The position numbers were made by a program, and so were the translations under genes. Source: Fusobacterium naviforme (GTDB lineage Bacteria > Bacillota > Clostridia > Lachnospirales > Lachnospiraceae). Taken from it: a stretch of 64,000 nt of DNA. Positions 20,502 through 37,264 of the stretch are shown here, one piece after another. The notes under the pieces are model-generated. The model was given only the letters and a program-made list of their open reading frames with translations, was not told the DNA's origin and did not search any database. The DNA lies in contig PYGH01000002.1 in NCBI GenBank assembly GCA_003014445.1, positions 186,001 through 250,000 on the forward strand, given 5' to 3'. Each line of letters starts with the position of its first letter. The first letter of the stretch is position 1.

Positions 20502-21764
20502 ATGATGAATCTTGCTGAAATTGTGGGTATTATTGCCGAGTATCATCCTTTCCATAACGGACACCTCTACCAGATGCGCAATGCACGCGCCATGACAGGT
20601 GCTTCCTACTGCGTTGTAGTGCTGAGCGGGCACTTTGTGCAGCGGGGCATGCCGGCCATCTACAGCAGCAGACTGCGCGCCGAGGCGGCGCTGCGCTGCG
20701 GTGCAGATGCTGTATTTGAGCTTCCCTCCCCCTTTTCCTCCGCCTCTGCCCGGGATTATGCTCGCTTCGCGGTCTCGCTCCTCTCTTCTCTCGGCATTCA
20801 GCAGCTCTCCTGCGGCACAGAGGATGCTTCTTCGGCAGAGCTCTCTCTGCTCACCGACTGTATCAGCGAGGAGTCTCCCATCTTTCAGCACAGCCTTCAG
20901 TGCAGCTTGAAGGACGGTCTCAGCTTCCCGGAGGCGCGTCTCGCAGCAATCCTCGACGATCTCCGCTCTGCCGGTGCAGCTCCTGAGCTGCTGCTCCGCA
21001 CAAAGGAGCTGCTCATGCAGCCAAACAATATACTGGCTCTCGAGTACGCCCATGCGATCCGCACCCTCTCATCGGAGCTTCAGCTCTGCTGCGTGGAGCG
21101 AAAAGGCTCCGGCTATCATGATCCTGTTCTCCACGGAGATTTTGCCTCCGCCACAGCGCTGCGAGGACAGCTCCTTCAAGGCAGCTCCGTTTCCGCTCTC
21201 AGCGACTATATGCCGCAGGAGGCCTGTGAGCTCTTCTCCACAGTCCCCCCGCTTTCTCCCGACAGACTCTGCGCCGCTCTGGAGCGCCGTATTCTGAATC
21301 TGCTCTATGAAGGCCGCGCGCTCTCCGACTTTGCAGATGTCTCTGGAGAACTGGCCGCCCGCATTGCCAAGAGCAGATTACAGTATGAGAGCTACGAGAC
21401 GCTGGTCAATGCTCTGAAGACGCGCCAATATACGCACACACGCATTGCGCGGGCTCTGACCCATATTTTTCTTGGCATAACAAAGGAGCAGATGCAGCTC
21501 TGGAAAAGCTGCAGTTCTGCCCCCTATGCCCGTCTTCTCGGTTTTCGCAGAGATTCCGCCGAACTGCTCTCCGCACTGAAAGAGCACTCCTCCATTCCTA
21601 TCATAAGTAAGGCGGCAGATGCGCCACAGCTCCTTAGCACACCCGCCGCACTCTCTCTCCTTCAGGCGGAGGCACACGCCGCCGCACTCTGGAATTCACT
21701 TTTATTTGAGCAGAGCAGAATCAGCTCTCCCAGGCTCTATGAACAGCAGATTGTGATTGTGTGA
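20502..21764 (+). CDS. tmcAL: tRNA(Met) cytidine acetate ligase TmcAL
   Basis: A 420-residue nucleotidyltransferase-fold enzyme (formerly YlbM) that activates acetate with ATP and makes N4-acetylcytidine at C34 of elongator tRNA-Met. The N-terminal GIIAEYHPFHNGHLYQM contains the HxGH nucleotide-binding motif. VVLSGHFVQRGMPAIYSS and RCGADAVFELP follow. An in-frame frame reaches further upstream, but the ATG at 20502 has AGGAGG five bases before it. The last 50 or so codons are repeated, with changes, at 27114-27243. Its neighbours pta and ackA make its substrate acetate. Confidence 0.93.
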   Translation: MMNLAEIVGIIAEYHPFHNGHLYQMRNARAMTGASYCVVVLSGHFVQRGMPAIYSSRLRAEAALRCGADAVFELPSPFSSASARDYARFAVSLLSSLGIQQLSCGTEDASSAELSLLTDCISEESPIFQHSLQCSLKDGLSFPEARLAAILDDLRSAGAAPELLLRTKELLMQPNNILALEYAHAIRTLSSELQLCCVERKGSGYHDPVLHGDFASATALRGQLLQGSSVSALSDYMPQEACELFSTVPPLSPDRLCAALERRILNLLYEGRALSDFADVSGELAARIAKSRLQYESYETLVNALKTRQYTHTRIARALTHIFLGITKEQMQLWKSCSSAPYARLLGFRRDSAELLSALKEHSSIPIISKAADAPQLLSTPAALSLLQAEAHAAALWNSLLFEQSRISSPRLYEQQIVIV

Positions 21765-21791
21765 AGACTCAGCCTATATCTGCTGTTGCGG
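21602..21791. repeat. Copy A of a duplicated junction (tmcAL 3' end)
   Basis: This stretch covers the last tmcAL codons and about 27 bases beyond. It recurs at 27116-27270 with about 90% identity by eye. Copy A has 36 extra bases lying between two CCGCCGCACT direct repeats, so copy B probably lost them by slippage. On the minus strand the end of copy A can still encode ATADIG and a stop, matching the end of the DUF1667 gene (ATADIS and stop) at copy B. Confidence 0.85.
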
Positions 21792-21800
21792 TACCTGCGC

Positions 21801-23108
21801 TTAAATCAGAGTATAAAGATAAAACAGCATGCAGACACCAACCGCATACATCGGAGCCGGAATATCCTTTGATTTTCCTGCCGCAAGCTTCATAATCAGG
21901 TATGAAACAATAGAAAGCGCCATACCATTTGCGATATTATAGGTCAGTATGGTCATGGCAACTGCAATAAACGCCGGAAGGCACTCTGTCTTATCACTGT
22001 AATCCACGCTTCTCATAGAGCTCAACATCTGAAAACCGATAATAGTGAGTACCGGACCGGTTGCCACTCCCGGAACCATGAGTGCCAGAGGTGTAAAAAG
22101 AATCATCAGTGCAAACAGGATACTGCTTGTAATCGCAGTGAGTCCTGTACGTCCACCATCCTCTACGCCGCTCGCAGACTCAAGATAAGTAGTCATAACC
22201 GGCATGCAGAAGAAGCTTCCCAGTACAGTTGAGAGAGAATCCACCTTAAAGCACTTCTCAATACCCGGCATGTCTCCATTCTCATCGAGCCAGCCAGCCT
22301 GATTGGCAACGCCAAGTATGATTCCCATCGTTCCAAAGAAATCCGGAACAAAGAAAGTAAGCAGCCACGGAAAATACTGTGGTTTTAAGGCACTCAGCAC
22401 ATCAATACGAAAACTGACCGGCCCGATACCGGACGGCGGGTTCAGTAAACTGGTTGGAAGCTTGGTGACTCCCAGTGGGATCCCGATTAATGTCACAATA
22501 ATAATAGACAGGATCATACTGCCCTTGATTTTTTTTGCTTCAAAGATCAGAACCAGCAGAAATCCAATTCCGAACATCAGGGCCTTCGCTGTACTGAGAT
22601 CACCAAAAATCAGCGTGTTCTTCTCACTTGACACAACAATTCCACCTGACTTCAATCCGATCAGGGCAATATAAAGTCCAATCCCACCACTTAAAGCGAT
22701 CTTAATACTTGCAGGAATCGCAGTTGCAATAATATTCCGGAGTCCGGCAAATGAAATAATAACGAAGATCACACCTTCAATAAAGATCAATCCGAATGCT
22801 GTCTCTACCGGCATTCCGATCGAATCAATTGAGCTCAGTATTGCAACCGAGCTCATACCGGGTGCCAGGCAAAACGGACGGTTCGTATAAAGCGCCATCA
22901 CCACGCTGCATACAACGATTGCCAGTATGAGTGCTGTAAGCACTGCACCGCGCATGAGTCCGGCCTTCTCCAGCATATTGGGAATGGTCGCCAATACGTA
23001 AGACATAGTGGCAAAGGTCGTGATACCAGCCAGTATTTCCGTACGAATATTCGTATTATTCTGACTCAATTGAAATCTTTGTTCAAGACTGCTGCTGAAT
23101 GAACTCAT
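21801..23108 (-). CDS. NCS2-family purine permease (AzgA/GhxP type), copy 1
   Basis: A 435-residue membrane transporter with about 12 hydrophobic helices. The N-terminus NIRTEILAGITTFATMSYVLATIPNML is the entry signature of the COG2252 adenine/hypoxanthine/guanine branch. PGMSSVAI, VPDFFGTMGIILGVANQAG and ESASGVEDGGRTGLT carry the substrate-binding helices. It is a close paralogue of the next gene. The TIPN at the position usually reading VNP is a small departure. Substrate within the nucleobase range is not decided by sequence. Both permeases lie downstream of a two-component pair. Confidence 0.9.
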   Translation of the reverse strand: MSSFSSSLEQRFQLSQNNTNIRTEILAGITTFATMSYVLATIPNMLEKAGLMRGAVLTALILAIVVCSVVMALYTNRPFCLAPGMSSVAILSSIDSIGMPVETAFGLIFIEGVIFVIISFAGLRNIIATAIPASIKIALSGGIGLYIALIGLKSGGIVVSSEKNTLIFGDLSTAKALMFGIGFLLVLIFEAKKIKGSMILSIIIVTLIGIPLGVTKLPTSLLNPPSGIGPVSFRIDVLSALKPQYFPWLLTFFVPDFFGTMGIILGVANQAGWLDENGDMPGIEKCFKVDSLSTVLGSFFCMPVMTTYLESASGVEDGGRTGLTAITSSILFALMILFTPLALMVPGVATGPVLTIIGFQMLSSMRSVDYSDKTECLPAFIAVAMTILTYNIANGMALSIVSYLIMKLAAGKSKDIPAPMYAVGVCMLFYLYTLI

Positions 23109-23205
23109 AAATTCCCCTTCCTTTTCTATTTCTATATCATATTACAACAATCCTATCTTCTCTGCGCGCTATGAGAACACAGGAAAACTGCCATCTTTAT
23201 CCCTG

Positions 23206-24519
23206 CTACAACAGAGTTGAAAGATAATAGACAAGAAATGCAGCCAGACTGTACATCGCAGGGTGCAGCTCCCTTCGCTTTCCCGACGCCAGCTTCAATA
23301 TCACATAAGACAATACAGAAAGCGAGAGACCATTGGCTATATTATTAGTAAATATTGTCATTGCAACTGCGATAAATGCCGGAACCGCTTCTGAAATATC
23401 CTCATAATTTATATTTTTCATTGACCCCAGCATCTGAAGGCCGATAAAGGTCAGGACAGGTCCTGTCGCCACTGCGGGAATCATAAGCGCCAATGGCGTA
23501 AAGAGTAGCATCAACACAAAGAGGATGCTGGTCGTAAGCGATGTAAGACCGGTTCTGCCTCCATCCTCCACGCCGCTTGCGGACTCCAAATAAGTCGTCA
23601 TAACCGGCATACAGCAGAAGCTTCCAGTCACAGTGGATACTGAATCCACTTTAAAGCAGCGCTCGATTCCCGGCATATTTCCCTGTTCATCCAGCCAGCC
23701 TCCCCGATTGGCGACGCCAAGAATGATGCCCATCGTTCCGAAAAAATCCGGGACAAAGAAAGTGATAAGCCAGGGGAAATACTCCGGCTTCAATGCCCCA
23801 AGAATATTGATACGAAACAAGATAGGAGCCGGGCTCACAGGCAACTGAAACATGCTGTCCGGAACCACGGTCTGATTCAACGGAATGGCCAACAATGTGA
23901 CAACCAGTATGGAGACAATCATGCTTCCGCGAAAACGTCTTGCCTCCAATATCAGCAGTACTACAAAGCCGATCGCAAAAAGAAAACATTTAGGAGAATT
24001 CAGATCTCCAAAACTCAGAGATCCGTTTCCTCCCGTCACAACAACATCTCCTGCCTTCAGACCGATCAAAGCAATGAAGAGCCCTATACCCGCGCTGATT
24101 GAGATCTTGACATTTGCCGGAATGGCATTCACTACCAACTCTCTGAGGCCTATAAAGGTGATAAAACAGAAGATCATTCCACTCAGGAAAACCAGACCAA
24201 AAGCAACATCAACCGGAATTCCAACCTCTCTGATGGTAGATCCTATCACTGCAACAGAACTCATTCCTGGCGCCAACGCAAAAGGGCGATTTGTGTACAG
24301 TGCCATCGCTATGCTGCAGGCTGCAATCATTAGAATGAGCATGGTCAGGATGGCCCCCTTCGGAAGTCCTGCACCACTGAGCATATTGGGAACCGCTGCC
24401 AGTACATAGGACATGGTAGCAAAGGTTGTAATACCTGCCAGCACCTCCGTTCGCACTGAGCTGTTATTTTTCTTCAGCGAGAACAAGCGCTCACAAGCCT
24501 GTTCAAAATGTAACATCAA
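23206..24519 (-). CDS. NCS2-family purine permease (AzgA/GhxP type), copy 2
   Basis: A 437-residue transporter with the same architecture as the neighbouring permease and clear similarity along the whole length (SVRTEVLAGITTFATMSYVLAAVPNML, VPDFFGTMGIILGVANRGG, ESASGVEDGGRTGLT). Differences concentrate in loops and in the middle helices, which suggests an older duplication and perhaps different nucleobase preference. A 97-base gap separates the pair. No purine-riboswitch core was recognised upstream of either copy. Confidence 0.9.
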   Translation of the reverse strand: MMLHFEQACERLFSLKKNNSSVRTEVLAGITTFATMSYVLAAVPNMLSGAGLPKGAILTMLILMIAACSIAMALYTNRPFALAPGMSSVAVIGSTIREVGIPVDVAFGLVFLSGMIFCFITFIGLRELVVNAIPANVKISISAGIGLFIALIGLKAGDVVVTGGNGSLSFGDLNSPKCFLFAIGFVVLLILEARRFRGSMIVSILVVTLLAIPLNQTVVPDSMFQLPVSPAPILFRINILGALKPEYFPWLITFFVPDFFGTMGIILGVANRGGWLDEQGNMPGIERCFKVDSVSTVTGSFCCMPVMTTYLESASGVEDGGRTGLTSLTTSILFVLMLLFTPLALMIPAVATGPVLTFIGLQMLGSMKNINYEDISEAVPAFIAVAMTIFTNNIANGLSLSVLSYVILKLASGKRRELHPAMYSLAAFLVYYLSTLL

Positions 24520-24624
24520 AAGCTCCCTTCTGTTTACTGGAGCAGCCCATCTCCGTCTGTCAGTATAGCTGCTGTTGTGCCTTCCTTCTGCTTTTGTAAA
24601 TAAAGAGTGAATTATGTAAATAAT

Positions 24625-25356
24625 TTAAGCGGGATCCAGTGCCTTAATCTGTGTCAGACGCCGCAGTTCAGCAGGCTCTCTTATGACTCTGTACTCATTC
24701 AGCGGCCGCCCGACACTTCCATAAATGTAAGTCTTCTTAAGAATCTTTTCTTTTGTAAGAAAATCCAGATACTTCTTCACGGAAACTCTGGAAAATTCCA
24801 TCCGCTCTGCCAATTCCTGTACACAGAATGCCTCTGTTCTGCCGATCAGCTCCTCTGCAATCCGCTGCAATGTATTCCTGTCAATCCCCTTTGGAAGAGA
24901 TAGCTCCACCATATCCGTTTCGCCCCGGTTCTGCCCGGACAAACGATCCACCTCACTCTGCTCAAGAGACAGCTTTCCCAGCAGCTCACAGCGCTCCTTA
25001 AATTTATAGAGCGCTTCCGTGAGTCTCGTGTAAGTAAAGGGCTTTATAATATAATCGACACAGCCCATACTGAAGGCCTCGCGTATCCTCTCCCCATCTT
25101 TTGCCGCGGAAATTATAATCGCCTCAATTTTAGCCTGTTCCGTGCGGAGCTTCCTCAGTACCTCAAGCCCGGAAGCCCCCGGAAGATAGATATCCAACAA
25201 CACAAGCTGAACCTTATTCTGTCTGAGACAACTGAGCGCTTCCTCTGTATTTCCCGCAATTCCGGCAATACCATAGCCGCTCTGTCTCAGAAATTCCTCT
25301 GTGATACGCGCCACCTGAGGATCGTCCTCTACAATCAGTACCTGATACATTCCCAT
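24625..25356 (-). CDS. CitB/DcuR-type response regulator
   Basis: A 243-residue response regulator. The receiver domain has the acidic pocket EDD (10-12), the phosphorylation site Asp55 in LLDIYLPG, and the lysine in IIKPFT near 105. After a linker, a C-terminal helix-turn-helix (CVQELAERMEFSRVSVKKYLDFLTKEKILKK) covers about 178-210. This layout is that of the CitT/DcuR/MalR branch, usually regulating transporters. It is encoded 21 bases behind its kinase and 105 bases before the permeases. Confidence 0.92.
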   Translation of the reverse strand: MGMYQVLIVEDDPQVARITEEFLRQSGYGIAGIAGNTEEALSCLRQNKVQLVLLDIYLPGASGLEVLRKLRTEQAKIEAIIISAAKDGERIREAFSMGCVDYIIKPFTYTRLTEALYKFKERCELLGKLSLEQSEVDRLSGQNRGETDMVELSLPKGIDRNTLQRIAEELIGRTEAFCVQELAERMEFSRVSVKKYLDFLTKEKILKKTYIYGSVGRPLNEYRVIREPAELRRLTQIKALDPA

Positions 25357-25377
25357 CCTCCTGTCTTTCTGCTTCTG

Positions 25378-27003
25378 CTACACATCCTTTGAAATATGTG
25401 CTACAAATTCTGTACCGGACTGTGGGTCGCTGGATACCGTCACATAGCCGCTGTGCCGCGCACAGGCCTTCTGCACAAGATACAGGCCAATCCCATTTCC
25501 ATTTACTTTATTGCTTACACCATACTCAAAAATGTGCTCTATCAGTCCCTCATCAATCGGATTTCCGGAGTTCCACACCGAAATCATGATATCATTCTGC
25601 CGCTCAATAAGTTCCATTGTCACTGTCCGCATGGCACAGCCCTGTGTCGCATCAAAGGCATTTTCCAGGAGATTCCCACTTATCACAACGATATCCTGCA
25701 CAAGCGCGTCGTTTTCTATCCTTCCGCAGCCAGAGCGTCCCGTCAGAATAAGATCCACCTTCTGCTCTGCTGCCCGATCAAATTTACTGAGCAGAAAAGC
25801 TGAAAGGATAGGATCCTTGATTCTGCCGTTGATACACTCCTTTTCTCGCTGCTTCAGATGAATCAGACCATCTATATATTCCTTAAGTTCCTCATATTGC
25901 TGTTCATGCACCAAACCGGAGACCACCTGTAGCTTGTTATTAAATTCATGCATCTGTGCACGCAATGCCTCTACATAGCTGCGCACTCCGGTGATATCCT
26001 CCGCAAAGCGCAGCAGCTCCTGCTTGGGGCGGCAGGTGATGAGAAGACTCCTCTGCGGCGAACCATCCACCTCAATCGGAATAAAATTCACATAACAGCT
26101 ATCTCCCCCAACTTTGCACTCGTAGTCAAAGAGCGCCTCCTTACGAAGGAGCATATTCTCAAAAGAAATATCCCGAAAGAGGTCAGAAAACTTTGCCAGC
26201 TCGCTATGTTGCTCTGCGGCAGCACTGCCATCAGATATATGATTCTCTGTCATATCGGCCCTGTGGTAGCTGCCGCGAAAAAACATCTGATGCGCTCTCC
26301 TATTTGCATGGACAATGTTTCCGCTCTCATCCACAGTCAGTATTCCGTCACGAACTGCATCGAGCAGAGCAGTTCGCTCTACAAGGAGCTTGGCAATCTC
26401 AGCAGGCTCCAGATTAAGCAGCGTCCCCTTGATACGATCCGTGAGATCCCAGACAAAAAGCAGCGCAATCAGCATAACCAGTATCGTCATAGCATTCAGC
26501 TCTCTCTGCGCCTTTTGAAGTCCCTCCTGATTATGACTATATTTCAGCTTTGAAATGACAATTCCGACACTCCCTCCGACTCCATCCGAAATAACACTTT
26601 CCGCATAGAGCGCAGCGTTCTTTTTGTCGGAATTCAGCAGACAATACCCCCGCGCCTCCGAAATTATTTTTCTCTCCTGGAGAATTTCCGTTTCAATACC
26701 GTCCTGCTGTGAATTATACAAAAGGCCGCCATCTTCAGACAAGACAGCGAGCCCGGAGCAGTTTGTGCAGGATTCCAGGCGTGCTGCGAGCTGGGCAAGT
26801 CGTGCTCTGTCAGCGCTTTGTATCGCCAGCCTCAGCTCCTCTGAGTCCGCAAACTGCTGTGTCAGATCCAGGAGGGCCGAGCCACTCGTCTGCGCCACAG
26901 TCTGCCTCAGATTCATGGAAACCGGATAATGATTCAGTAATAAAATAGCTGCAACCACACTGCACACCAGCATTGCAATTTTTGTGCGAAGCTTCAGCAT
27001 CAC
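25378..27003 (-). CDS. DcuS/CitA-type sensor histidine kinase
   Basis: A 541-residue membrane kinase. A first transmembrane helix (about 8-26) and a second (about 172-190) flank an extracytoplasmic sensor domain. That domain looks Cache-like by position only. A cytoplasmic PAS region (VRDGILTVDESGNIVHANRRA) follows. The phosphoacceptor box reads AQMHEFNNKLQVVSGL (His near 350), the SPOB-type box of the CitA/DcuS family. The ATPase domain has NLLENAFDA (N box), then GNGIGLYLV. The ligand is not evident; linkage to NCS2 permeases suggests a purine-related signal. Start ATG follows GGGGGTAGGGGTG. Confidence 0.92.
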   Translation of the reverse strand: MMLKLRTKIAMLVCSVVAAILLLNHYPVSMNLRQTVAQTSGSALLDLTQQFADSEELRLAIQSADRARLAQLAARLESCTNCSGLAVLSEDGGLLYNSQQDGIETEILQERKIISEARGYCLLNSDKKNAALYAESVISDGVGGSVGIVISKLKYSHNQEGLQKAQRELNAMTILVMLIALLFVWDLTDRIKGTLLNLEPAEIAKLLVERTALLDAVRDGILTVDESGNIVHANRRAHQMFFRGSYHRADMTENHISDGSAAAEQHSELAKFSDLFRDISFENMLLRKEALFDYECKVGGDSCYVNFIPIEVDGSPQRSLLITCRPKQELLRFAEDITGVRSYVEALRAQMHEFNNKLQVVSGLVHEQQYEELKEYIDGLIHLKQREKECINGRIKDPILSAFLLSKFDRAAEQKVDLILTGRSGCGRIENDALVQDIVVISGNLLENAFDATQGCAMRTVTMELIERQNDIMISVWNSGNPIDEGLIEHIFEYGVSNKVNGNGIGLYLVQKACARHSGYVTVSSDPQSGTEFVAHISKDV

Positions 27004-27051
27004 CCCTACCCCCTGACCTCAATATTCGAGCAACAGATGAAATCTCTCGCC

Positions 27052-27081
27052 ATTATATAAAAGGAAATGTGAAATCTGCAA
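27052..27081 (-). promoter_or_regulatory. Possible promoter of the kinase-regulator-permease block
   Basis: TTGCAG and TATAAT on the minus strand, 18 bases apart, about 50 bases upstream of the kinase start and between it and the truncated tmcAL copy. Confidence 0.5.
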
Positions 27082-27113
27082 GTTTATCGATTAAAGGATC
27101 CCAGCTCCCTTCC

Positions 27114-27243
27114 CACCATAAGTAAGGCGGCAGATGCGCCACAGCTTCTGGGCACACCCGCCGCACTACAGAATTTGCTTTTATTTGAGCAGAGCAGAAT
27201 CAGCTCTCCCAACCTCTATGAACAGCAGATTGTGATTGTGTAA
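27114..27243 (+). pseudogene. Truncated second copy of the tmcAL 3' end
   Basis: An open stretch reading SKAADAPQLLGTPAAL, then LLLFEQSRISSP and YEQQIVIV with a TAA stop matches the last residues of TmcAL encoded at 21606-21764. There is no start or upstream part. A 12-codon in-frame deletion and about 15 substitutions separate it from the intact gene. It is a fragment, not an expressed gene. See the duplicated-junction finding. Confidence 0.9.
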
Positions 27244-27270
27244 AGGTTTAGCTTATATCTGCTGTTGCTA
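27116..27270. repeat. Copy B of the duplicated junction
   Basis: Direct repeat of 21602-21791, about 5.5 kb apart. It covers the tmcAL fragment and continues into the last codons of the convergent DUF1667 gene. The two copies flank exactly the two-component system and two permeases. Confidence 0.85.
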
Positions 27271-27604
27271 TTATATCAATACCCGTATTACAAATATCTG
27301 AAATTAATATCTCATGGCTACGAATCGGCAAATGCACTCTGCACTTACGAATCTCCACCATACAATTCATCAACATTTCTTTTGGTAGTGGCTCTGAACT
27401 TCTTACAGGAATCAACGGAATTCTATCACTGTCAGTCCGAATTGTGGAAGTCAGTATGCGCACCGGATGAGAAAATTCTGTCGTTGCATACTGCTTCCCT
27501 CTGGCACAGCCATACCCTTCCATTGATATAATCTTTTCTCCCTCTCCTTCCACTGCAATATGACAACCCAGTGGACATACTGTACAGATAATATCTTTTT
27601 TCAT
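27248..27604 (-). CDS. DUF1667 protein of the glycerol-3-phosphate oxidoreductase operon
   Basis: A 118-residue protein with a cysteine pattern CTVCPLGC (Cys7, 10, 14) and a further GCARG cysteine at 33, suited to an iron-sulfur cluster or zinc. DUF1667 genes typically stand at the end of operons encoding a GlpA-like dehydrogenase and an FAD oxidoreductase, as here. It may be an electron-transfer subunit; that is inference. A GGAGG in the last codons of the preceding gene serves as its ribosome site. Its final codons lie in the duplicated junction. Confidence 0.9.
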   Translation of the reverse strand: MKKDIICTVCPLGCHIAVEGEGEKIISMEGYGCARGKQYATTEFSHPVRILTSTIRTDSDRIPLIPVRSSEPLPKEMLMNCMVEIRKCRVHLPIRSHEILISDICNTGIDIIATADIS

Positions 27605-27606
27605 GC

Positions 27607-28872
27607 TTATCCAGCCTCCCTGACGATACTTATTTTGACAGTATCGTTTTCAATTTCGCTCAAGTTCAGCTCAAGATGTTCCATCTCCCCCGGATTCACT
27701 CTCTGGCGTTTTTTAGAAGCCAAAAGCTTTGCTCCGGAATGCGCAACAATCTTCACTCCAAACTCCGGCTCCCGCACCCGGAAGTACAGGCTGACCTTTT
27801 CATTCTCTCCGCTTGCACTGAGACTCTGAGGACAAATATAGCGAACATTTTCACCCGTTTCGCAGCGAATCTTTTTTTCCTCTTTTGGCAGTCTCCCCTG
27901 TACATAGCGTGCTGCATATTGCCCGGCTCTGATACTCTCCTCACTTACATTATCTGCCAGATCATTGACATGCACTACATTACCGCAGGCAAAGACCCGC
28001 TCTGCCGAGGTCTGCATATACTGATTCACTTCGGGTCCATTTGTAACTGGATTGATCTGGATTCCTGCGGTTCTGGTCAGCTCATTCTCCGGAATCAATC
28101 CTACAGAAAGTAGCAAAGTATCGCAGGCAATATATTTTTCCGTCTCCGGAATCGGCTTCTTATCCTCCCCCACTGCGGCATAATATATCCCTTCCACTCT
28201 CTGATAACCTTCAATCTTTGTGATTGTATGAGATAAATAGAGCGGAATACCAAAATCATCCAGACACTGCACCTTATTGCGCGTAAGTCCCGCCAAATAA
28301 TCCATTAACTCAATGACCGCCAGTACCTCTGCCCCCTCGAGCGTCATACGGCGAGCCATAATCATTCCGATATCCCCTGAACCAAGTATCACAATCTTCC
28401 TGCCTACCATCTCATTCTGGCGGTTTATCAACCTCTGGGCAGTTCCCGCTGTATAAATGCCTGCGGGACGGGAGCCGGGGATCTGAATCATCGCTCTGGT
28501 TCTCTCCCGACAACCCATAGCAAGAACAATACTCCCCGCCTGCACCGTTGTTATACCGTGCTCACGGCTTGTACACAGCACACAGCCGCTCTTTTCATTC
28601 ACCTCGAGCACCATGGAATTCATCAGAAACTCTACACCGAGTTCCATGGCCTCTTTTGCAAATCTTCCGGCATACTCCGGTCCCGTCAGCTCTTCCTTGA
28701 AATATGTAAGTCCGAAGCCCGGGTGAATACACTGCTGCAAAATTCCACCTATACTTTCATCGCGCTCTATGATTAATACGCTTTTTGCGCCTTCTTTTTT
28801 GGCGGCGGCGGCAGCGGCGAGACCAGCAGGTCCAGCTCCGATTACCGCAACATCGCATTTCAAATTATACAT
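27607..28872 (-). CDS. NAD(P)/FAD-dependent oxidoreductase of the glp operon
   Basis: A 421-residue flavoprotein. The N-terminal dinucleotide-binding fold is VAVIGAGPAGLAAAAAA (about 9-25), a second Rossmann motif IVILGSGDIGMIMARR lies near 154-169, and VFACGNVVHVND near 289 is the C-terminal FAD-binding stretch. It begins like the small subunit of opine/proline dehydrogenases and GlpB-like partners. Together with the GlpA-like protein and DUF1667 it probably passes electrons from glycerol-3-phosphate onward. The ATG has GGAGG upstream. Confidence 0.9.
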   Translation of the reverse strand: MYNLKCDVAVIGAGPAGLAAAAAAKKEGAKSVLIIERDESIGGILQQCIHPGFGLTYFKEELTGPEYAGRFAKEAMELGVEFLMNSMVLEVNEKSGCVLCTSREHGITTVQAGSIVLAMGCRERTRAMIQIPGSRPAGIYTAGTAQRLINRQNEMVGRKIVILGSGDIGMIMARRMTLEGAEVLAVIELMDYLAGLTRNKVQCLDDFGIPLYLSHTITKIEGYQRVEGIYYAAVGEDKKPIPETEKYIACDTLLLSVGLIPENELTRTAGIQINPVTNGPEVNQYMQTSAERVFACGNVVHVNDLADNVSEESIRAGQYAARYVQGRLPKEEKKIRCETGENVRYICPQSLSASGENEKVSLYFRVREPEFGVKIVAHSGAKLLASKKRQRVNPGEMEHLELNLSEIENDTVKISIVREAG

Positions 28873-28902
28873 CTGCTTCCTCCGTTCAAGCTGCTTACGA
28901 CC

Positions 28903-30339
28903 TTATTTGTTTTTGCCGACCACCATATTGGACCCCTTCAGGTTCTTATTGACTTCCTCCACGGGAATCTTCCACTCCCGCGCGAGTATCTCTATCACCT
29001 TTGGGCCACAGAATCCGCCCTGACAGCGTCCCATTCCGGCTCTGACTCTGCGTTTTACCGCATCCACAGTTTTTGCCCCCAGCGGCCTGTGTATCGCATC
29101 TAGGATCTCTCCCTCCGTGATCGTCTCGCAGCGACAGATGACATTGCCGTATAACGGATTTTCAAGAATCAGGGCTTCTTTCTGTTCTGTATTCAGCTCG
29201 TGAAAACGCGGGATCCCTCTTCTCGTCTTTTTAAAGTTATCTTTAAGTCTCAGTTCACATCCGATTTCCTTAAGCTTTTCTGTTGCATATTTCCCCATAG
29301 CGACACTAAGCGTAAGCCCGGTAGAACGCACACCGGAGAGATTCAAATAGCCCTTCAGATCATTGTAAACATCCACCTGCAAACCCTCGGGATTACGATT
29401 TGGACGAAGTCCGCTGTACTGTGTGACTGTATCACGCACATTGACCCGCGGAATCATCTTTCTCACATCTTCATAAATACTCTCAAGCCCTTCTGTCGTT
29501 GTGGAGGCATCCAGCTTGTCCTGCAGATCCTCTGCAGTCGGTCCAACCAGCATATTGCCATGTATTGTCGGTGTCATAAGCTTGCCTTTGGTTATCTTTG
29601 TCGGAATGGGAAGAACAATGTGATTTACCTTACAGCTGGTATTCTTATCAAGAATATAAAACTGTCCTCTTCGCGCGACAACTTTATAATCCGCCTTGCC
29701 AACCATGGCAGCAATCTCATCGCAGTACAACGCCGCTGCATTCACTATAAAGTCTGTCTCTATCACTCCGCCGCTCGTGACAACTTCCCGGACCGCCCCA
29801 TCTCTGACCCGTATATCTGTAACTTTGGTATTTAGAAGAAAATTCACTCCATTTTCATAGGCATTTTCTGCCAATGCCTGAACTAAGATAAATGGGTCAA
29901 TGATACTCTCTCTCGGTATATACAACCCGCCGAGCACCTCCGGATTTAATTCCGGCTCACGTTCGAGCAGCTCCTCTCGAGACAGATATTCTACATCATA
30001 CACGCGATTCAGAAAAGCCTTCTCCTTGATCGCCGGCAGCTGTGCAAACTGTTCTTCATTAAAAGCCGGAAGTATAGCACCAATACGCTTGAAAGGAACA
30101 TCCAGATCCTTTGTCAGCTGATCATACATGGGATTTGCCGCGACCACCAGCTGAGACTCCAGCGTCCCGGGCTTTGCATCATAACCAGTATGAATAATTG
30201 CACTGTTCGACTTCGAAGCATTTCCTCCGATATCATCTCTCATATCTACGACAGTGACTTTGACCCGATACTTGGAAAGCTCCCTGGCAATGGCGCACCC
30301 CACTGCTCCGGCGCCTATGATCACGACATCTGTCTTCAT
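28903..30339 (-). CDS. glpA: FAD-dependent glycerol-3-phosphate dehydrogenase (GlpA-like)
   Basis: A 478-residue DAO-family flavoenzyme with DVVIIGAGAVGCAIARELSKY at the N-terminus, and NSAIIHTGYDA near 44. It ends in a BFD-like [2Fe-2S] domain: CRCE near 404, then GRCQGGFCGPK near 438. The C-terminal iron-sulfur domain marks the anaerobic branch rather than the aerobic GlpD. It oxidises glycerol-3-phosphate to dihydroxyacetone phosphate. Its start overlaps the glpK stop (TAATG). Confidence 0.88.
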   Translation of the reverse strand: MKTDVVIIGAGAVGCAIARELSKYRVKVTVVDMRDDIGGNASKSNSAIIHTGYDAKPGTLESQLVVAANPMYDQLTKDLDVPFKRIGAILPAFNEEQFAQLPAIKEKAFLNRVYDVEYLSREELLEREPELNPEVLGGLYIPRESIIDPFILVQALAENAYENGVNFLLNTKVTDIRVRDGAVREVVTSGGVIETDFIVNAAALYCDEIAAMVGKADYKVVARRGQFYILDKNTSCKVNHIVLPIPTKITKGKLMTPTIHGNMLVGPTAEDLQDKLDASTTTEGLESIYEDVRKMIPRVNVRDTVTQYSGLRPNRNPEGLQVDVYNDLKGYLNLSGVRSTGLTLSVAMGKYATEKLKEIGCELRLKDNFKKTRRGIPRFHELNTEQKEALILENPLYGNVICRCETITEGEILDAIHRPLGAKTVDAVKRRVRAGMGRCQGGFCGPKVIEILAREWKIPVEEVNKNLKGSNMVVGKNK

Positions 30340-31850
30340 TATACTTCCTCCTTATCAGTCTCCGCCCAAGCCAAAGCTCTCTTTACTGCTCTGTGCCACT
30401 GGCGCATCAGCTCCTGACGTCTCTCCTCACTCATGTTTGGTTCAAAGCGCTTATGCAGCTTCCATTTTCCAGACAGCTCATCAAAGCTGGAGAACTCATT
30501 GATTCCATAAGCAGCAAGGTACGCCGCTCCGAGTGCCGTCGTATCCGTAATCTCTGGAACCTCGACCGGAATCCCCAGTATATCTGCCTGGAACTGCATC
30601 AGAAAATCATTTGCCGTCGCCCCGCCATCGACACGCATTACTTCAACTTTAATTCCTGAATCCTTTTCCATGACATCAAGATTGTCTTTCACCTGATAGG
30701 CAATGCTCTCAAGTGTGGCTCGCACGAGCTGCTCCCTTGTCGTTCCACCTGTTATTCCAACGATCGTTCCCCGTGCATACTGATCCCAGTGAGGAGCCGC
30801 AAGTCCTGCAAATGCCGGCACAAAATATACACCTCCGGTATCTGGAACAGATTTTGCGATTTCTTCCGTCTCCGCAGCGTGAGCAATAATCTTAAGTTTA
30901 TCCCTGAGCCACTGTACAGCTGCACCTGCAATATAAATATCTGCATCCAGGGCATAATCGAGCTTTCCTCCGTTCAGCCCCCACGCAATTGCTGTATTCA
31001 GTCCATTCTTTGAATAGACCAGCTGATCCCCCGTATTCATATACATAAAACTTCCTGTTCCGTACGTAGTCTTGATCATGCCTTTTTGAAAACAGGCCTG
31101 TCCAAACAATGCCGCCTGCTGATCTACTACAGATCCGGAAATTGGAATGGAGGCTCCAAAGAAATCCAATGGATCAGTATATCCATAAATATAAGCGCTG
31201 TCCTTTACCTCCGGAAGTATCTCTCTTGGAATTCCAGCCGCATCCAAAATCTCCTGATCCCACTCTCCGGTATGGATGTTAAACAGCATCGTCCTGGACG
31301 CTGTTGTCTGATCAGTTACAAAAACTTTTCCATGCGTAAGCTTCCATATCATCCATGTATCCAGAGTTCCGGCCACCAGACGCCCCTGCGCCAACTTTTC
31401 TTGGACACCTGGCACGTGATCCAGAATCCACTTGATCTTTGTGGCACTGAAATAGGCATCTATAACCAGCCCCGTCTTCTCACGTATCATGTCCTGATGC
31501 TTTTCAGCAAGCTTATCTGCTTCTGATGCAGTGCGACGATCCTGCCACACAATTGCATTATACACCGGTATTCCGGAAATTTTATCCCAGAGCATCACTG
31601 TCTCACCCTGATTGTCAAGACCCATGCAGCTCAGCTCTTCGGCATGAATTCCGGCCTGCTGAACAGCCTGATCAATTGTATCCAGACAGCTCTTCCATAT
31701 TTCCATGGGATCGTGCTCAACCCAGCCGGGTTGAGGATAGTACTGTGTATGTTCTTTATAACCACGCGCAACAGGATTCCAGCTCTCATCAAAAATCATT
31801 GCAGTCGTACCAGTAGTCCCCTGATCCAGGCCCAGATAATATTTTCCCAT
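30339..31850 (-). CDS. glpK: Glycerol kinase
   Basis: A 503-residue FGGY-family kinase. GLDQGTTGTTAMIFDE lies at the N-terminus, WVEHDPMEIW near 45, IVWQDRRTA near 98, and GLAAPHWDQYARGTIVGITGGT near 316-337, all specific to glycerol kinase within the family. It phosphorylates glycerol to trap it in the cell. Its ribosome site lies in the last codons of the eutH-like gene. Confidence 0.96.
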   Translation of the reverse strand: MGKYYLGLDQGTTGTTAMIFDESWNPVARGYKEHTQYYPQPGWVEHDPMEIWKSCLDTIDQAVQQAGIHAEELSCMGLDNQGETVMLWDKISGIPVYNAIVWQDRRTASEADKLAEKHQDMIREKTGLVIDAYFSATKIKWILDHVPGVQEKLAQGRLVAGTLDTWMIWKLTHGKVFVTDQTTASRTMLFNIHTGEWDQEILDAAGIPREILPEVKDSAYIYGYTDPLDFFGASIPISGSVVDQQAALFGQACFQKGMIKTTYGTGSFMYMNTGDQLVYSKNGLNTAIAWGLNGGKLDYALDADIYIAGAAVQWLRDKLKIIAHAAETEEIAKSVPDTGGVYFVPAFAGLAAPHWDQYARGTIVGITGGTTREQLVRATLESIAYQVKDNLDVMEKDSGIKVEVMRVDGGATANDFLMQFQADILGIPVEVPEITDTTALGAAYLAAYGINEFSSFDELSGKWKLHKRFEPNMSEERRQELMRQWHRAVKRALAWAETDKEEV

Positions 31851-31853
31851 AGT

Positions 31854-32933
31854 TCATGCCTCCTTCATATTTTTTGTCATAATAAATCCCAGAGCTATCG
31901 CTGCGACACCCGCAGATAACTTGCCTGCCACAACAGGTGTGATCATGCCAGGCTGAACGCCCGCCGTAAATCCAAGGTGATCGCCCAGCGCTGCCGTTGC
32001 AGGAACCAACCATGCAGTATTAATAATAATCCCTCGTTTTTTCATATCTTTCATCATAGTATATACGGGAACTGAATTTGCCAGAGTAAACACAAGACCA
32101 GCTGCACTCGTCGCATCCATTCCCAATTTCTGCCCAATGGCATTTAAAGGTTTATCCAAAACCTTTGTGAGAATTGTAAGCACAGGAAAAGTTCCGAGCA
32201 GAACAATTCCAATTCCAGCCACAATCTCCATTCCTTCCATAATCGGCGCCATCCCCGGAATGATTACCATTCCAGTTATAAACTCAAAGGCAGCACAGGC
32301 TAAACCCACATAAATTACAATCGTAATCAGTTGGCCAAAAATTGTACATCCCTTGATCATTTTTTCTGGAATCAGCTTTAATCCGAGTGCAAGCAGTGCA
32401 GAAAGAACAAGTACTGGAAGCGTATTCATAATAAGCATATGTAATTGAAATCCAGCAATCAAACCACCGATCAGACACCCAATCGGAATGGTTATAAGAC
32501 CAATCAGCAGTCCATTGGAAAAGTATTCCCTGTCTTCCTTTTCAATCAGTCCCAAACCAACCGGAATAGAAAAAACCAATGTGCACCCCAGCATTGAAGC
32601 AACAATATTTCCGGCAAAGAGACCCGCCTCCTCACTCTGGGCAAGTTCCATTGCCAATGTATACCCTCCCATATCGTTCGCCAGTATTGATCCAAACAAA
32701 GCCGGATCGGCACCAAATGTGCGAAACAGCGGAACAATGACGGGACCTAAAGCAGAAGAAATTACAGGTGCAAGACATACAATTCCGACCATCCCCAGTG
32801 CTAAAGATCCAATTGCCTGAAAGCCTTCATCAAATTTATCTCCGAGTTTCAGGTGATTACCGCTGATTTTATCTGCGGCTCCGATTAGTATTCCAATCGC
32901 CATTACCCACATCAAAATTCGATCAAAAGACAT
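31854..32933 (-). CDS. EutH-family transporter in the glycerol operon
   Basis: A 359-residue membrane protein from the ATG at 32933 (MSFDRILMWVMAIGILIGAADKI), which has AAAGGAG eight bases upstream. A longer frame begins at 33002 but has no such site. About ten hydrophobic helices are seen. FGSILANDMGGYTLAMELAQ, the FDEGFQAIGSLALGMVGI region and SVPVYTMMKDM are EutH-like. EutH is the ethanolamine transporter of the eut operons, but no other eut gene is present here. Instead the gene is first in a glpK-glpA operon that lacks GlpF. Glycerol or a glycerol-containing head group is a reasonable substrate guess. Confidence 0.85.
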   Translation of the reverse strand: MSFDRILMWVMAIGILIGAADKISGNHLKLGDKFDEGFQAIGSLALGMVGIVCLAPVISSALGPVIVPLFRTFGADPALFGSILANDMGGYTLAMELAQSEEAGLFAGNIVASMLGCTLVFSIPVGLGLIEKEDREYFSNGLLIGLITIPIGCLIGGLIAGFQLHMLIMNTLPVLVLSALLALGLKLIPEKMIKGCTIFGQLITIVIYVGLACAAFEFITGMVIIPGMAPIMEGMEIVAGIGIVLLGTFPVLTILTKVLDKPLNAIGQKLGMDATSAAGLVFTLANSVPVYTMMKDMKKRGIIINTAWLVPATAALGDHLGFTAGVQPGMITPVVAGKLSAGVAAIALGFIMTKNMKEA

Positions 32934-32992
32934 GCCTCTTCTCCTTTCTGTCACTCTTAAGGTATTTTTAAACTGTATTATCTGTATACGTA

Positions 32993-33021
32993 TCATTATC
33001 ACACATTTGTTTTTTGTGCAA
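32993..33021 (-). promoter_or_regulatory. Probable promoter of the eutH-glpK-glpA operon
   Basis: On the minus strand TTGCAC is followed 15 bases later by GATAAT, or 17 bases later by TAATGA. A partly symmetric GATACGTATAC just downstream could be part of an operator for the neighbouring DeoR-type protein. Confidence 0.5.
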
Positions 33022-33066
33022 ATCCACTATCCCGGATTTTTTTAGGCATTTTTACTATTTTTTTGC

Positions 33067-33111
33067 AAATAAAAATGTGGGTATAAATATTATTCACAAT
33101 TTATCCCACAT
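33067..33111 (-). terminator. Terminator of the deoR-type gene
   Basis: A 13-bp stem with one bulged base (ATGTGGG.TAAAT with its complement) and a 10-base loop is followed on the minus strand by TTTTTATTT. It separates the regulator from the transporter operon. Confidence 0.7.
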
Positions 33112-33174
33112 CCATATTTTTGAATTTATATAAAATCCTATATTTTATACTATCCTTAAGCCTTCAAAAAGCAC

Positions 33175-33930
33175 TCAGGCAATGACCGTTTCCACTCCAC
33201 GCTCCCTGAGACGCTTTAATATCTGCTTGTCTGCCCGCTCGTCCGTAATCAATATATCTATCTTTTCAGGAAGGCAAACCTGATTCAGCGCACGCTGTCC
33301 CACCTTAGAATAATCTGCAAGTGCTATGATCTCCTTGCTGTGGCTTACACAGTGCCGTCTTAAATTGCACTCCTCAATATGAAAATCCATCACTCCCATA
33401 CGCTCATCAAGTCCCGCCACACCCAAAAACAATTTATCTGCCAACAGGAGATCCACATGATCCTCTGCCATAAATCCAGAGGTCGACCCCTCCCCTCTTC
33501 TCACCTTGCCTCCCAGCAGATAAAGCTGAACCTTCTCCTCATCCATGAGCTCCTGAGCGAATTTGATCGAGTTTGTAAATACTGTAATGCTTTTCCCCCT
33601 CAAAAACTTCGCCATCTGCAAGGTTGTAGTGCCAATATCAATGATGATCGTATCCCCATCTTTTACCAGCTCTGCCGCCTTTTTTCCTATCATAATTTTC
33701 TGTTCATAGTTTTTAATTTCTCGATAAGAATAGTCCGGTTCTATCCCGCTCGCTACATTTAAGACTGCACCGCCATGTACCCTGCGCACAATCTGTTCCT
33801 TCTCCAGCTGCTCCAGATCTCTGCGTATCGTCTCCATGGAGACCTGAAACTTTTCCGCAAGCTCATTTGCCTTTACGATTCTGTTTTCTGTCACTAAATG
33901 TATAATCTGATCCTTACGTGCAATCTTCAT
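33175..33930 (-). CDS. DeoR/GlpR-family transcriptional regulator
   Basis: A 251-residue repressor. The N-terminal DeoR helix-turn-helix reads RKDQIIHLVTENRIVKANELA then VSMETIRRDLEQLE (5-45). RRVHGGAV follows, as in the family. The C-terminal DeoRC sugar-phosphate domain has IIDIGTTTLQMAKFL near 97, and FLGVAGLDERMGVMDF near 168. GlpR-type members respond to glycerol-3-phosphate; standing directly upstream of the glycerol operon supports that role here. Confidence 0.92.
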   Translation of the reverse strand: MKIARKDQIIHLVTENRIVKANELAEKFQVSMETIRRDLEQLEKEQIVRRVHGGAVLNVASGIEPDYSYREIKNYEQKIMIGKKAAELVKDGDTIIIDIGTTTLQMAKFLRGKSITVFTNSIKFAQELMDEEKVQLYLLGGKVRRGEGSTSGFMAEDHVDLLLADKLFLGVAGLDERMGVMDFHIEECNLRRHCVSHSKEIIALADYSKVGQRALNQVCLPEKIDILITDERADKQILKRLRERGVETVIA

Positions 33931-34124
33931 TATGATCTTCCCATCAGTTAGTAGCCTTTAATCATCTTTTTCAACTCACTCTCCACATATATTTTTATAT
34001 ATTTTTAACGAAAATTGCAAGTATATATATAAATTTATAGAATTAATTGCATTCGGAACAATAGCCCACATCTTACAATCAGGCATATATAAATAAATAT
34101 TCAAAACACACAGCCTCTGCTCCC

Positions 34125-34189: not shown

Positions 34190-34894
34190 ATGAACACAGT
34201 ACTCTGTGCGGAGAATATCACCAAGGACTATATGCTCGGCGAGCTGTGCGTCCATGCGCTGCGCGGAGTCTCCTTCACAGTGGAAGAAAAGGAGCTCATC
34301 GTCATACTGGGCCCCTCCGGCTCCGGCAAGAGCACCATGATGAATATACTCGGAGGCATCGAGACTGCCAGCTCCGGTACACTCCGCTATCAGGGAAGGC
34401 CTGTAGACTGGAGCGACCAGCCATCGCTCTCCCACTACCGCAGAAAGCATATCGGCTTTGTCTTTCAGTTCTATAACCTGCTCCCCGGACTCACGGCACT
34501 GGAGAATATCGAACTCGCGGCCGAGCTCAGTGAGACGCCGCTGAGCCCCGCCGAGCTGCTTTCCGAGGTCGGACTCGCAGACCGCGCACACCACTTCCCC
34601 AGTCGCCTATCCGGCGGAGAGCAGCAGCGAATCGCCATCGCAAGGGCCCTCTGCAAGAACCCTGATCTCCTGCTCTGTGACGAGCCGACCGGCGCACTCG
34701 ACTCCAAAACCGGCGTTCAGGTGCTGCGGCTGATTCACAGCTTCTGCAGAAAATACGGAAAGCCGGTTGTACTGATCACACACAATGCAAATATCGCTAA
34801 AATCGCAGATCGCATCTTCTACTTCAAGGACGGAATGCTGGAGCGCATCGAAAAAAATGAGACGCCGCTCTCCCCGGATGCGGTCGACTGGTAG
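34190..34894 (+). CDS. ABC transporter ATP-binding protein (LolD/MacB type)
   Basis: A 234-residue ATPase. Walker [10 protein letters not shown] lies at 41-49, the Q-loop [21 protein letters not shown] near 86-106, the signature LSGGEQQR near 142, Walker [13 protein letters not shown] near 161 and the switch His in LITHN near 200. The Q-loop and EPTGALDS are typical of the MacB/LolD/SalX branch, which powers FtsX-type permeases. GGAGG precedes the ATG. It works with the next two genes. Confidence 0.93.
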
Positions 34895-34899
34895 ATGCT

Positions 34900-37260
34900 A
34901 TGAAGCAATTTCAGAAAAATGTGCTGCGGCTTGCAGTCAAAAACAGAGGCTCTTTGCTCGGTGCTGTGCTGATCATCGCGCTGGGCATCTTTGTCATGGT
35001 CGCGATGGAGGACACTCTTCTGAACCTTAAGAACCAGATCTCCGCCTACTACGCCGCGCAGCAGCTCTCCGATCTCTTCGCAGAGGTAAGCGGCATCAGT
35101 GAGGCGGAGCTTCAGCGCCTCTTAGAAATCCCCGGCATCTCTGCTGCCTCCGGAAGGATGTCCGCCGAGCTCAGGATCATTGAGGGAGAGGCCCCTGCAT
35201 CCGAAACTCTGAACGATATCGTAACGGTACATCTCCTCTCCTCTGAGGAAGGAGCCACTCTGAACCGACCGCGGCTCTCTGCGCCGATGCAGAGCTCCGA
35301 CGATATCTTTCTCGGCCCCCGCATGTCCGCGGTCTATCGCTTTCCCATCGGAACTGAGCTGCGCCTGCTCTGCGGCGGAGAGAGCTTCCGCTTCCGCTAC
35401 GCCGGAACGGTCTCCCAGCCGGACTACATCTACTCCGTGCCGCCCGGCGGCTCCATGATTCCCGACGGCTCCATCTACGATATCGCCATGATCTCCCCCG
35501 AAAAAATGAGCGCCATGCTGCACAGCTCCGCGCGCACGGAGCTTGCCTTCTCTCTCGCTCCCGGTGTGCGCTTTGAAGATATTCGCCACGAGCTTCAGGA
35601 ACATCTGACCCCCTACGGTCTGAAATCGCTCTGCGACCGTCCGAAGCAGACGAGTTACGCGATGGTTGACGACGAGTTCCATGAGCTCCGCGCCACGGGC
35701 ACCATGCTTCCCATGCTCTTTCTCTCGGTCTCCGTCTTCATGCTCTATATTGTTCTCAAAAAAATGATAGACCAGGAGCGCGTACTCATCGGTACCATGA
35801 AGGCCTTCGGACTCAGCAGCCACGAACTCATCTCCGGTTATCTCATGCTCGGTCTTCTCATCGGTGTCTGCGGCGCTCTGCTCGGCGGACTGCTCGCAGG
35901 TTTTTTCGGCCGCTTCATGTTCCGGCTCTACTGTGATTACTTCAATCTCCCTGATCCCCGGTACCACGACTACCTGACTCCCCGTCTTTATGGGCTCCTG
36001 CTCGCTGCATTCAGCTCCACCGCCGCAGTTCTCAGCGGCACACACGGGATACTTTCCATCGCTCCTGCAGCAGCCATGCGTCAGCAGAGTCCTGCCAAGG
36101 CGGGTAATGCTCTCCTCCCGCCACACCTGCTCCGGCGACTGCCTCTCTTAAGCCGCATGGCGCTGCGCTCTCTGCAGCGCAATCCCCTGCGCAGCTTTCT
36201 CATCGTCCTTGCCGTCGCCTTTCCATTTTCCATGGCCTCCGTGCTCTTTTCCTATCCCGCAGTCGTTGATCATATGCTGAGAGAACAGTTTCAGCATATC
36301 GAGTGCTACGATCTTCAGCTTCATCTGGACTCTCCGGTGAGCCCGGAGCGGGCAGCAGACGCAGCCCTGACGCTCAAAGACTGCGCAGAGGCCGAAACGG
36401 TTCTGCAGCTGCCCGCTGCCTTCCGGCGAGATGCGCTGACAGAATATGCACTGCTCACCGCACTACCGGAGAAAAGCCGCCTCTGGCACATCATTGATGC
36501 AGAAGGCAAAGAACATGCGCCGCCCCGCTGCGGCATCATCCTGAACCAGCGCACTGCAGACAAGCTGAGGCTCTCAGCGGGAGACCGTGTACGCATTCTG
36601 ATCCCCGGTCTTCTCCCCGAGGCCCGCGAGCTCCCTGTGCTGCAGGTAATACAGGAGACCTTCGGGAGCGGAGCCTATCTCGCGCTCGATTCCCTTCCGG
36701 ATCAGCTCGGTACAGACCGCCTCTGCAATAAGCTGATATTGAGAGCAAAGCCCGGAGCCTTTGCTTCACTCAAATCCGATATACGCTCAGCCGGCAGAAT
36801 CAGCTGGATCGTGGATATGCCAAAGTCTGTAAAGACCTATCAGGATATGATGGGTTCCATGTTCATCATGGTCAACAGCTTCGCAGTCATGTCTCTCATC
36901 GCAGGAGGGATACTCATCTATAATATCTCTCTCATCACTCTGAGAGAGCGCATCTCCGAGCTCACGACGCTTCGCGTGCTGGGATGTTCGGAGATGGAGC
37001 TCGGACAGATGCTGTTGATAGAGCAGGGGGTACTCCTGTTTCTCGGTATTCTTCTGGGTATGCCCGGAAACTATCTTGTCCGCGGACTGCTGGAGCGCTT
37101 TATGACCTCGGACAATTATCACATTCAACTAAACCTCCACCCTACCTCCTGTGTTCTGGCATTCTTCTGCTGCATTTTCATTGTTCTCTTCTCCCTTCAC
37201 CGGGAGATATCTGTCATCTCTGCCGCCCGCCTGACGGACGCGCTGAAAGAACGGGAGTGA
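34900..37260 (+). CDS. FtsX-like ABC transporter permease
   Basis: A 786-residue permease with duplicated MacB/FtsX organisation. A first helix (about 17-38) is followed by a large extracytoplasmic domain (40-260). Three helices follow (about 267-290, 315-340, 365-390), and then a second helix with another external domain (about 430-640) and three C-terminal helices (about 655-680, 705-730, 755-775). Such permeases export peptides or lipids or act mechanically. The gene starts five bases after the ATPase stop without a clear ribosome site, so coupling is likely. Confidence 0.9.
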   Translation: MKQFQKNVLRLAVKNRGSLLGAVLIIALGIFVMVAMEDTLLNLKNQISAYYAAQQLSDLFAEVSGISEAELQRLLEIPGISAASGRMSAELRIIEGEAPASETLNDIVTVHLLSSEEGATLNRPRLSAPMQSSDDIFLGPRMSAVYRFPIGTELRLLCGGESFRFRYAGTVSQPDYIYSVPPGGSMIPDGSIYDIAMISPEKMSAMLHSSARTELAFSLAPGVRFEDIRHELQEHLTPYGLKSLCDRPKQTSYAMVDDEFHELRATGTMLPMLFLSVSVFMLYIVLKKMIDQERVLIGTMKAFGLSSHELISGYLMLGLLIGVCGALLGGLLAGFFGRFMFRLYCDYFNLPDPRYHDYLTPRLYGLLLAAFSSTAAVLSGTHGILSIAPAAAMRQQSPAKAGNALLPPHLLRRLPLLSRMALRSLQRNPLRSFLIVLAVAFPFSMASVLFSYPAVVDHMLREQFQHIECYDLQLHLDSPVSPERAADAALTLKDCAEAETVLQLPAAFRRDALTEYALLTALPEKSRLWHIIDAEGKEHAPPRCGIILNQRTADKLRLSAGDRVRILIPGLLPEARELPVLQVIQETFGSGAYLALDSLPDQLGTDRLCNKLILRAKPGAFASLKSDIRSAGRISWIVDMPKSVKTYQDMMGSMFIMVNSFAVMSLIAGGILIYNISLITLRERISELTTLRVLGCSEMELGQMLLIEQGVLLFLGILLGMPGNYLVRGLLERFMTSDNYHIQLNLHPTSCVLAFFCCIFIVLFSLHREISVISAARLTDALKERE

Positions 37261-37264
37261 TACC

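Follow-up and report, generated by a model that had tools for sequence, protein, structure and literature searches.

In Campbell-type insertion-duplication, the repeats that flank the added DNA come from recombination of homologous sequence. Integrative elements that occupy gene 3′ ends leave the target gene intact with a re-supplied end, and the old end is displaced. Through rhs displacement in Enterobacteriaceae, old gene ends that lack a head persist as direct repeats within a region of low G+C, and circular intermediates have been proposed for the recombination, according to the account in PMC2935791. This rhs C-terminal displacement is the closest parallel to the scar described here at the 3′ end of tmcAL. 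In the cases outlined in PMC2935791, as at this locus, a gene receives a new 3′ end from incoming DNA and the old end lies downstream as a headless direct repeat, with low G+C behind it. However, the rhs tips described there differ and are exchanged repeatedly, whereas at tmcAL the tail is the same in both copies, one event is seen and what it brought in is a convergent operon of unrelated genes. A small genomic island of E. coli resembles this locus in its small cargo, short direct repeats and lack of a recombinase of its own, but excision was detected for the island in the description given by PMC5426353, whereas mobility is here only deduced from a diverged scar. Tandem-duplication merodiploids arising after transformation also carry flanking repeats from homologous recombination; those presented in PMC3784515 are duplications of approximately 100–900 kb, unlike the 5.3-kb operon between 0.2-kb repeats found here. 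Set beside these systems, the tmcAL repeat pair is unremarkable, a scar from an insertion that duplicated its junction, and a single example at a housekeeping gene. Its value lies in recording cleanly how an operon can settle next to such a gene when no recombinase is at hand; beyond the study of genome evolution, so ordinary a trace of chromosomal gene gain or movement is of small interest. No description of a duplicated tmcAL end was found in the literature searched, which is a statement about that literature and not about the literature at large.

The window analysed is a 64,000-nt stretch (bases 186001–250000 of the 274-kb contig C4) of a 2.40-Mb draft genome in 23 contigs. Within it, tmcAL (HIGH_NTase1; 20505–21764, plus strand) is intact (Pfam PF05636, E = 4e-109) and has orthologues in all six congeners, with identities of 50–63%. 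A first-pass annotation had described the end of this gene as repeated directly about 5.5 kb away, and the repeat was recovered mechanically, with start-to-start spacings of 5479 and 5515 (D2, 111 nt, 89%; D3, 74 nt, 85%). The ungapped blocks pair 21579–21652 of copy A with 27094–27167 of copy B, and 21689–21789 with 27168–27268. Copy A (21579–21789, plus strand) consists, in the repeat alignment, of the last 61 codons of tmcAL, the stop and a further 25 nt. Copy B (27094–27268, plus strand) holds an open reading frame of 49 codons and a stop in the tmcAL frame, and runs into the last six codons of the DUF1667 gene. The same annotation had suggested counting the changes between the copies as a guide to age; they number 23 over 175 aligned columns (approximately 13%), in addition to a 36-nt deletion in B. 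When the plus strand of the contig is compared with itself, the two copies are matched at E = 2e-36; the genome as a whole contains no further copy. Eight direct pairs are listed for the contig (at least 60 nt long and less than 30 kb apart), comprising six tandem arrays with spacing below 250 nt, the permA/permB paralogues discussed below, and A/B itself. That the genome is a draft in 23 contigs could favour an assembly artefact, but copies that differ by 36 nt and at this many columns are not one sequence placed twice, and the E-value argues against a chance resemblance; the probability of either is negligible.

The repeat begins approximately 23 nt further left than the first-pass annotation had placed it, and this left edge is poorer, with 8 of 23 columns differing vs 15 of 152 elsewhere (Fisher p = 0.004, for a split picked post hoc). 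Matching beyond the two ends falls to chance level (8/40 and 11/40). Differences between A and B cluster along the alignment (permutation p = 0.01 with every column included, 0.002 with the left edge removed). At the codon level, 15 of the 50 compared (stop included) differ and 8 of these 15 alter the residue; one such change from A to B replaces I with T at a position where the congeners read (five of the six) show I, L or M. The 36-nt stretch that is present only in A (21653–21688, plus strand) falls between CCGCCGCACT at 21643 and 21679, and is one unit of this direct repeat. Because the protein segment it encodes is kept in all six congeners (G003–G006 in one comparison; G001, G002, G003 and G006 in an alignment), the loss lies on the copy B side, as had been claimed. 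Judged from its sequence, copy B is a dead, displaced tmcAL tail and not a working gene end. A terminator-like hairpin is also found inside the repeat at 21612–21649, on the minus strand (that of the convergent operons), with a shorter form at 27127–27142 in copy B.

Read on the minus strand, the repeat extends into a second gene. The last 21 of the 25 nt after the tmcAL stop in copy A encode ATADIG-stop of DUF1667 (21769–21789), and copy B encodes ATADIS-stop at 27248–27268, in agreement with the earlier reading. The DUF1667 gene itself occupies 27248–27604 (minus strand; PF07892) and its C-terminus is family-like; homologue C-termini resemble GTGVDIIATKDV, so IATADIS is DUF1667's own tail. 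As ATADIG-stop is present in copy A though no DUF1667 gene follows, copy A, or the DNA it came from, originated at a junction of tmcAL with DUF1667.

Between the two junction copies lie a two-component system and two permeases, again as had been noted. These four minus-strand genes form an operon with a predicted role in the sensing and uptake of small molecules. Next to copy A is permA (21801–23108; PF00860), an NCS2-type (Xan_ur_permease) transporter that is 86% identical to a permease of congener G006. It is preceded by its paralogue permB (23206–24519; 63% identity), recognised by profile search and self-comparison of the window. The closest PHROGs family of permA is labelled “tail protein” (phrog_27398, E = 8e-105), and is probably a mislabelled host gene. 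Further upstream are a DcuR-like response regulator (24625–25356; PF00072) and a DcuS-like sensor histidine kinase (25378–27003; SPOB_a, HATPase_c), for which the best NCBIfam models are DcuR and DcuS/MalK, respectively. The kinase scores 293 bits against a DcuS-type curated cut-off of 520, and the regulator 158.8 against 262, so the pair is a relative of DcuS/DcuR-type two-component systems but not a member by the curated cut-offs. An AT-rich upstream stretch (27004–27093, minus strand; GC 0.39), present in single copy, separates the kinase gene from copy B; it contains a TATAAT-like element, which is a by-eye call only and is missing from the output of a consensus scan.

How, then, did one junction come to stand on both sides of an operon? 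Direct repeats of the target flank the operon on either side, as in Campbell-type insertion, and this geometry of A, operon and B requires a duplication of the junction on entry of the operon. The prior adjacency of tmcAL and DUF1667 and the decay of copy B are likewise shown by the sequence. In the explanation we favour, the operon and its own upstream region would have been inserted at an existing convergent tmcAL/DUF1667 junction, duplicating approximately 210 bp. A circular (or reiterated) DNA carrying the operon and a junction fragment would have undergone one RecA-type crossover at the chromosomal junction, giving one junction copy per side, with A completing tmcAL and B a headless tail free to decay. 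Copy B may later have lost its 36 nt by slippage, and the repeats could subsequently recombine, trimming differences mid-repeat. The junction fragment on the circle would need an origin, for example by having been excised at an earlier time from a chromosome arranged in the same way. What we infer from the map is the circle, its single crossover, slippage in B and the operon's source, and insertion by a junction-duplicating event, most simply a circle with a single crossover, is held tentatively, at somewhat less than an even chance. The direct order of A, operon and B, the loss of similarity beyond both repeat ends, the DUF1667 codons in copy A, the low GC3 of the inserted genes, the operon of like gene order at another locus of G006, and a copy B that stays open in the tmcAL frame despite the loss, in whole codons, of a segment conserved in the congeners all argue for insertion. 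Against it stand the searches described below, which found no relative of the junction in phages, plasmids or viral contigs and no empty site among the sampled loci, and also the clumping of the A/B differences, which would not be expected had a single event been followed by uniform decay. Later conversion of one copy by the other, or several multi-base changes, would explain both the clumping and the diverged left edge, although the argument does not lean on this.

A circle and one crossover, as the first-pass annotation proposed, does give the observed map, but the same map results from tandem duplication with deletion, considered further below, or from the joining of a linear donor. In homology-facilitated illegitimate recombination, a linear donor with tmcAL tail, DUF1667 tail and operon would pair by the tmcAL end, and its other side would be joined at random inside the recipient tmcAL tail, which becomes copy B. 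This fits the geometry, and the process is known in competent bacteria and E. coli conjugation from the cases set out in PMC3240628. However, the donor must already hold the derived layout, and divergence between the tails peaks at the left edge, a part that in both copies would come from the recipient had the crossover occurred further right; we regard such an origin as improbable.

The extent of divergence bears on the age of the event. Strains of one species differ by approximately 5%, and the copies exceed this yardstick at approximately 13%, so the event would be old provided that they started identical; it may be younger if they began as two alleles. One bolder version of the insertion takes the operon to be, or to have been, a mobile unit free of any recombinase. 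Its portable homology arm of 0.2 kb would consist of the tmcAL and DUF1667 tails; host recombination alone would pass the unit, as a circle, from one chromosome to another, and its repeats would still convert each other. Taken as a whole this is highly improbable.

The neighbourhood of tmcAL in the congeners places the junction in a wider setting. There, tmcAL faces a UPF0210/DUF711 gene in five of the six, at a distance of approximately 30 bases in G006, 1.0 kb in G001, 1.2 kb in G003, 2.0 kb in G005 and 9.7 kb in G004; in the sixth, G002, the contig stops approximately 1 kb past tmcAL and the facing gene is not readable. In three of these five (G003, G004 and G005) carD lies in between, following tmcAL. 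At the six congener tmcAL loci, two of which are short (L034, 9.0 kb; L035, 4.3 kb), no permease, two-component or DUF1667-to-EutH genes were found at E 1e-5. In the window, the CarD-like gene (38733–39245, plus strand) stands 17 kb from tmcAL, and the first 12 kb of this distance (permA to the DeoR regulator, 21.8–33.9 kb) is low in GC3: all ten genes of the stretch have values of at most 0.533, and all 20 other ORFs picked from the window have at least 0.596. Beyond the operon and DUF1667, the low-GC3 stretch consists of an NAD/FAD oxidoreductase gene, GlpA-like, GlpK-like kinase and EutH-like genes and a DeoR-type regulator (27607–33930, minus strand). The next 4.4 kb encodes an ABC ATPase, an FtsX/MacB-type permease and an HlyD-type adaptor (34190–38608, plus strand), has native base composition, and does not occur in the tmcAL–carD interval of the congeners read. 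A tandem 55-bp unit in about five copies, rich in GAGCGCTCAGCGCG, lies between carD and the UPF0210 gene (39310–39584). In G004, the interval between carD and UPF0210 (L036, 1866–10948) contains several ABC-ATPase-like matches, 23–28% identical to the gene at 34190, which points to gene uptake at this neighbourhood more than once in the genus.

Since tmcAL faces UPF0210 in five of the six congeners and DUF1667 lies within the low-GC3 stretch, DUF1667 is, on this comparison, a newcomer beside tmcAL. The first-pass annotation was therefore right that the two genes had been neighbours, as the DUF1667 codons in copy A attest, but their adjacency is not the ancestral state. The 17-kb spacing of tmcAL and carD, together with the 12 kb of low GC3, indicates that the operon insertion is one layer of a larger change; the apparent single insertion is the more recent part of a broader gain of DNA between tmcAL and carD.

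Low GC3 is alike in the HK-RR-permB-permA operon and the DUF1667 cluster, as if they were once one stretch. This would suit a tandem duplication of a segment with the tmcAL tail at one end, the operon at the other and DUF1667-deoR in between, followed by two deletions, of DUF1667-deoR from the first unit and of the operon from the second, by which the operon jumps across the DUF1667-deoR cluster and foreign DNA or a circle is unneeded. Merodiploids formed by unequal crossing-over are documented among the cases in PMC3784515. The scheme takes three steps, however, and leaves the former position of the operon without a trace: the gap at 33931–34189 matches nothing else in the window. No third junction copy or remnant was found near 34 or 39 kb. 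The nearest relatives found for the two parts also differ: that of the operon lies in a congener, those of DUF1667 and GlpA in different genera or a different family. We consider duplication and loss unlikely, while giving it appreciable weight.

G006 has HK-RR-permB-permA in the same gene order (50, 50, 74 and 86% identity, respectively) at another locus, beside an lgt-like gene, whereas the matching locus of G000 has a different two-component pair and no such operon (lgt and its neighbours were named by reading sequence); the operon has thus been gained, lost or moved. Its GC3 in G006 is somewhat low (0.55–0.59 vs 0.61–0.66 for the mraY-to-lgt neighbours). No kinase as similar as that of G006 was found in the other five congeners, or in the other 391 genomes of a partial order sample. 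The upstream regions of the two operons show no homology above shuffles, so the original operon edges cannot be fixed by that comparison. For DUF1667 the nearest relative among 299 genomes searched is 55% identical, in another genus of the same family (G285), and for GlpA the nearest among 60 relatives is 61% identical, in another family (G045).

If tmcAL and DUF1667 were once directly convergent, an empty site might survive elsewhere, and the first-pass annotation predicted genomes in which the two genes face each other. The search covered 86 tmcAL loci (80 named genome loci and six congener loci, L108 and L038 being the same G006 contig), and 46 DUF1667/GlpA loci that include the window's own two, 30 of the loci being drawn from the 138 of 299 genomes with a DUF1667 match. 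The predicted arrangement was not seen among these loci, many of which are short: DUF1667, permA, permB, GlpA and EutH were found at none of the 86 tmcAL loci at E 1e-5, and tmcAL at none of the 44 other DUF1667/GlpA loci, the only matches being the window's own. L153 has one partial kinase match of 35%. No empty tmcAL/DUF1667 site was seen among the sampled loci, in which the closest genomes have at most 63% identity in tmcAL, so that the comparison is a weak one.

A comparable second tmcAL tail was likewise found at none of the 86 loci (a motif located 71 of them and the end of the match the other 15; several have short flanks), and recurrent integration at the tmcAL end, a candidate considered, is rejected on this result. 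Weak second-tail matches occur in 10 of the 71 motif-located loci: four to the coding part of tmcAL, of at most 42 nt (L113, the largest, L130, L142 and L033), five to the 60 nt from the tmcAL stop onward (L131, L156, L166, L169 and L186), and an opposite-strand protein match of 34% over 62 residues in L109. Among the 15 located by match end, one has a weak match (26 nt, L178). In L156 (approximately 11.3–21.0 kb), from an uncultured Clostridia bacterium, the stretch after tmcAL recurs many times within the 21-kb locus as a dispersed repeat of its own.

Could an integrative element have targeted the tmcAL 3′ end, carrying a replacement end, and since lost its recombinase? Such elements usually leave their target gene whole, with a new 3′ end supplied and the former one displaced. 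The repeat also spans DUF1667 codons, however, which are part of the flank and not of the target gene, and the tail is without a comparable copy at the other tmcAL loci. Profile searches of the 14 main ORFs between 21.8 and 39.25 kb (all 14 by Pfam, some also by NCBIfam and PHROGs) assigned none of them to a recombinase family, which bears out the earlier remark that no integrase is present. There is no tRNA target near the repeat, the tRNAs of the window lying only at 47.0 and 59.3 kb. The site occurs in no viral contig searched, either by the two exact junction patterns or by the tmcAL and HK proteins, and megablast of 20505–28900 against phages and plasmids gave no match. As proteins, HK matches 169 plasmid records and tmcAL 15, all below 60% identity; several among those listed reach the size of a chromosome (up to 5.4 Mb) and so say little on mobility. 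An integrative element as the source of the repeat is very doubtful indeed.

A further feature of the low-GC3 stretch is that a gene of the EutH family (ethanolamine permease) adjoins the glycerol-kinase-like, GlpA-like and DUF1667 set (30339–33002). From this association, EutH may here transport the substrate of the kinase. The same set of EutH, kinase, GlpA and DUF1667 is found in G045 (L075, 5938–11689), with the order of EutH and kinase swapped.
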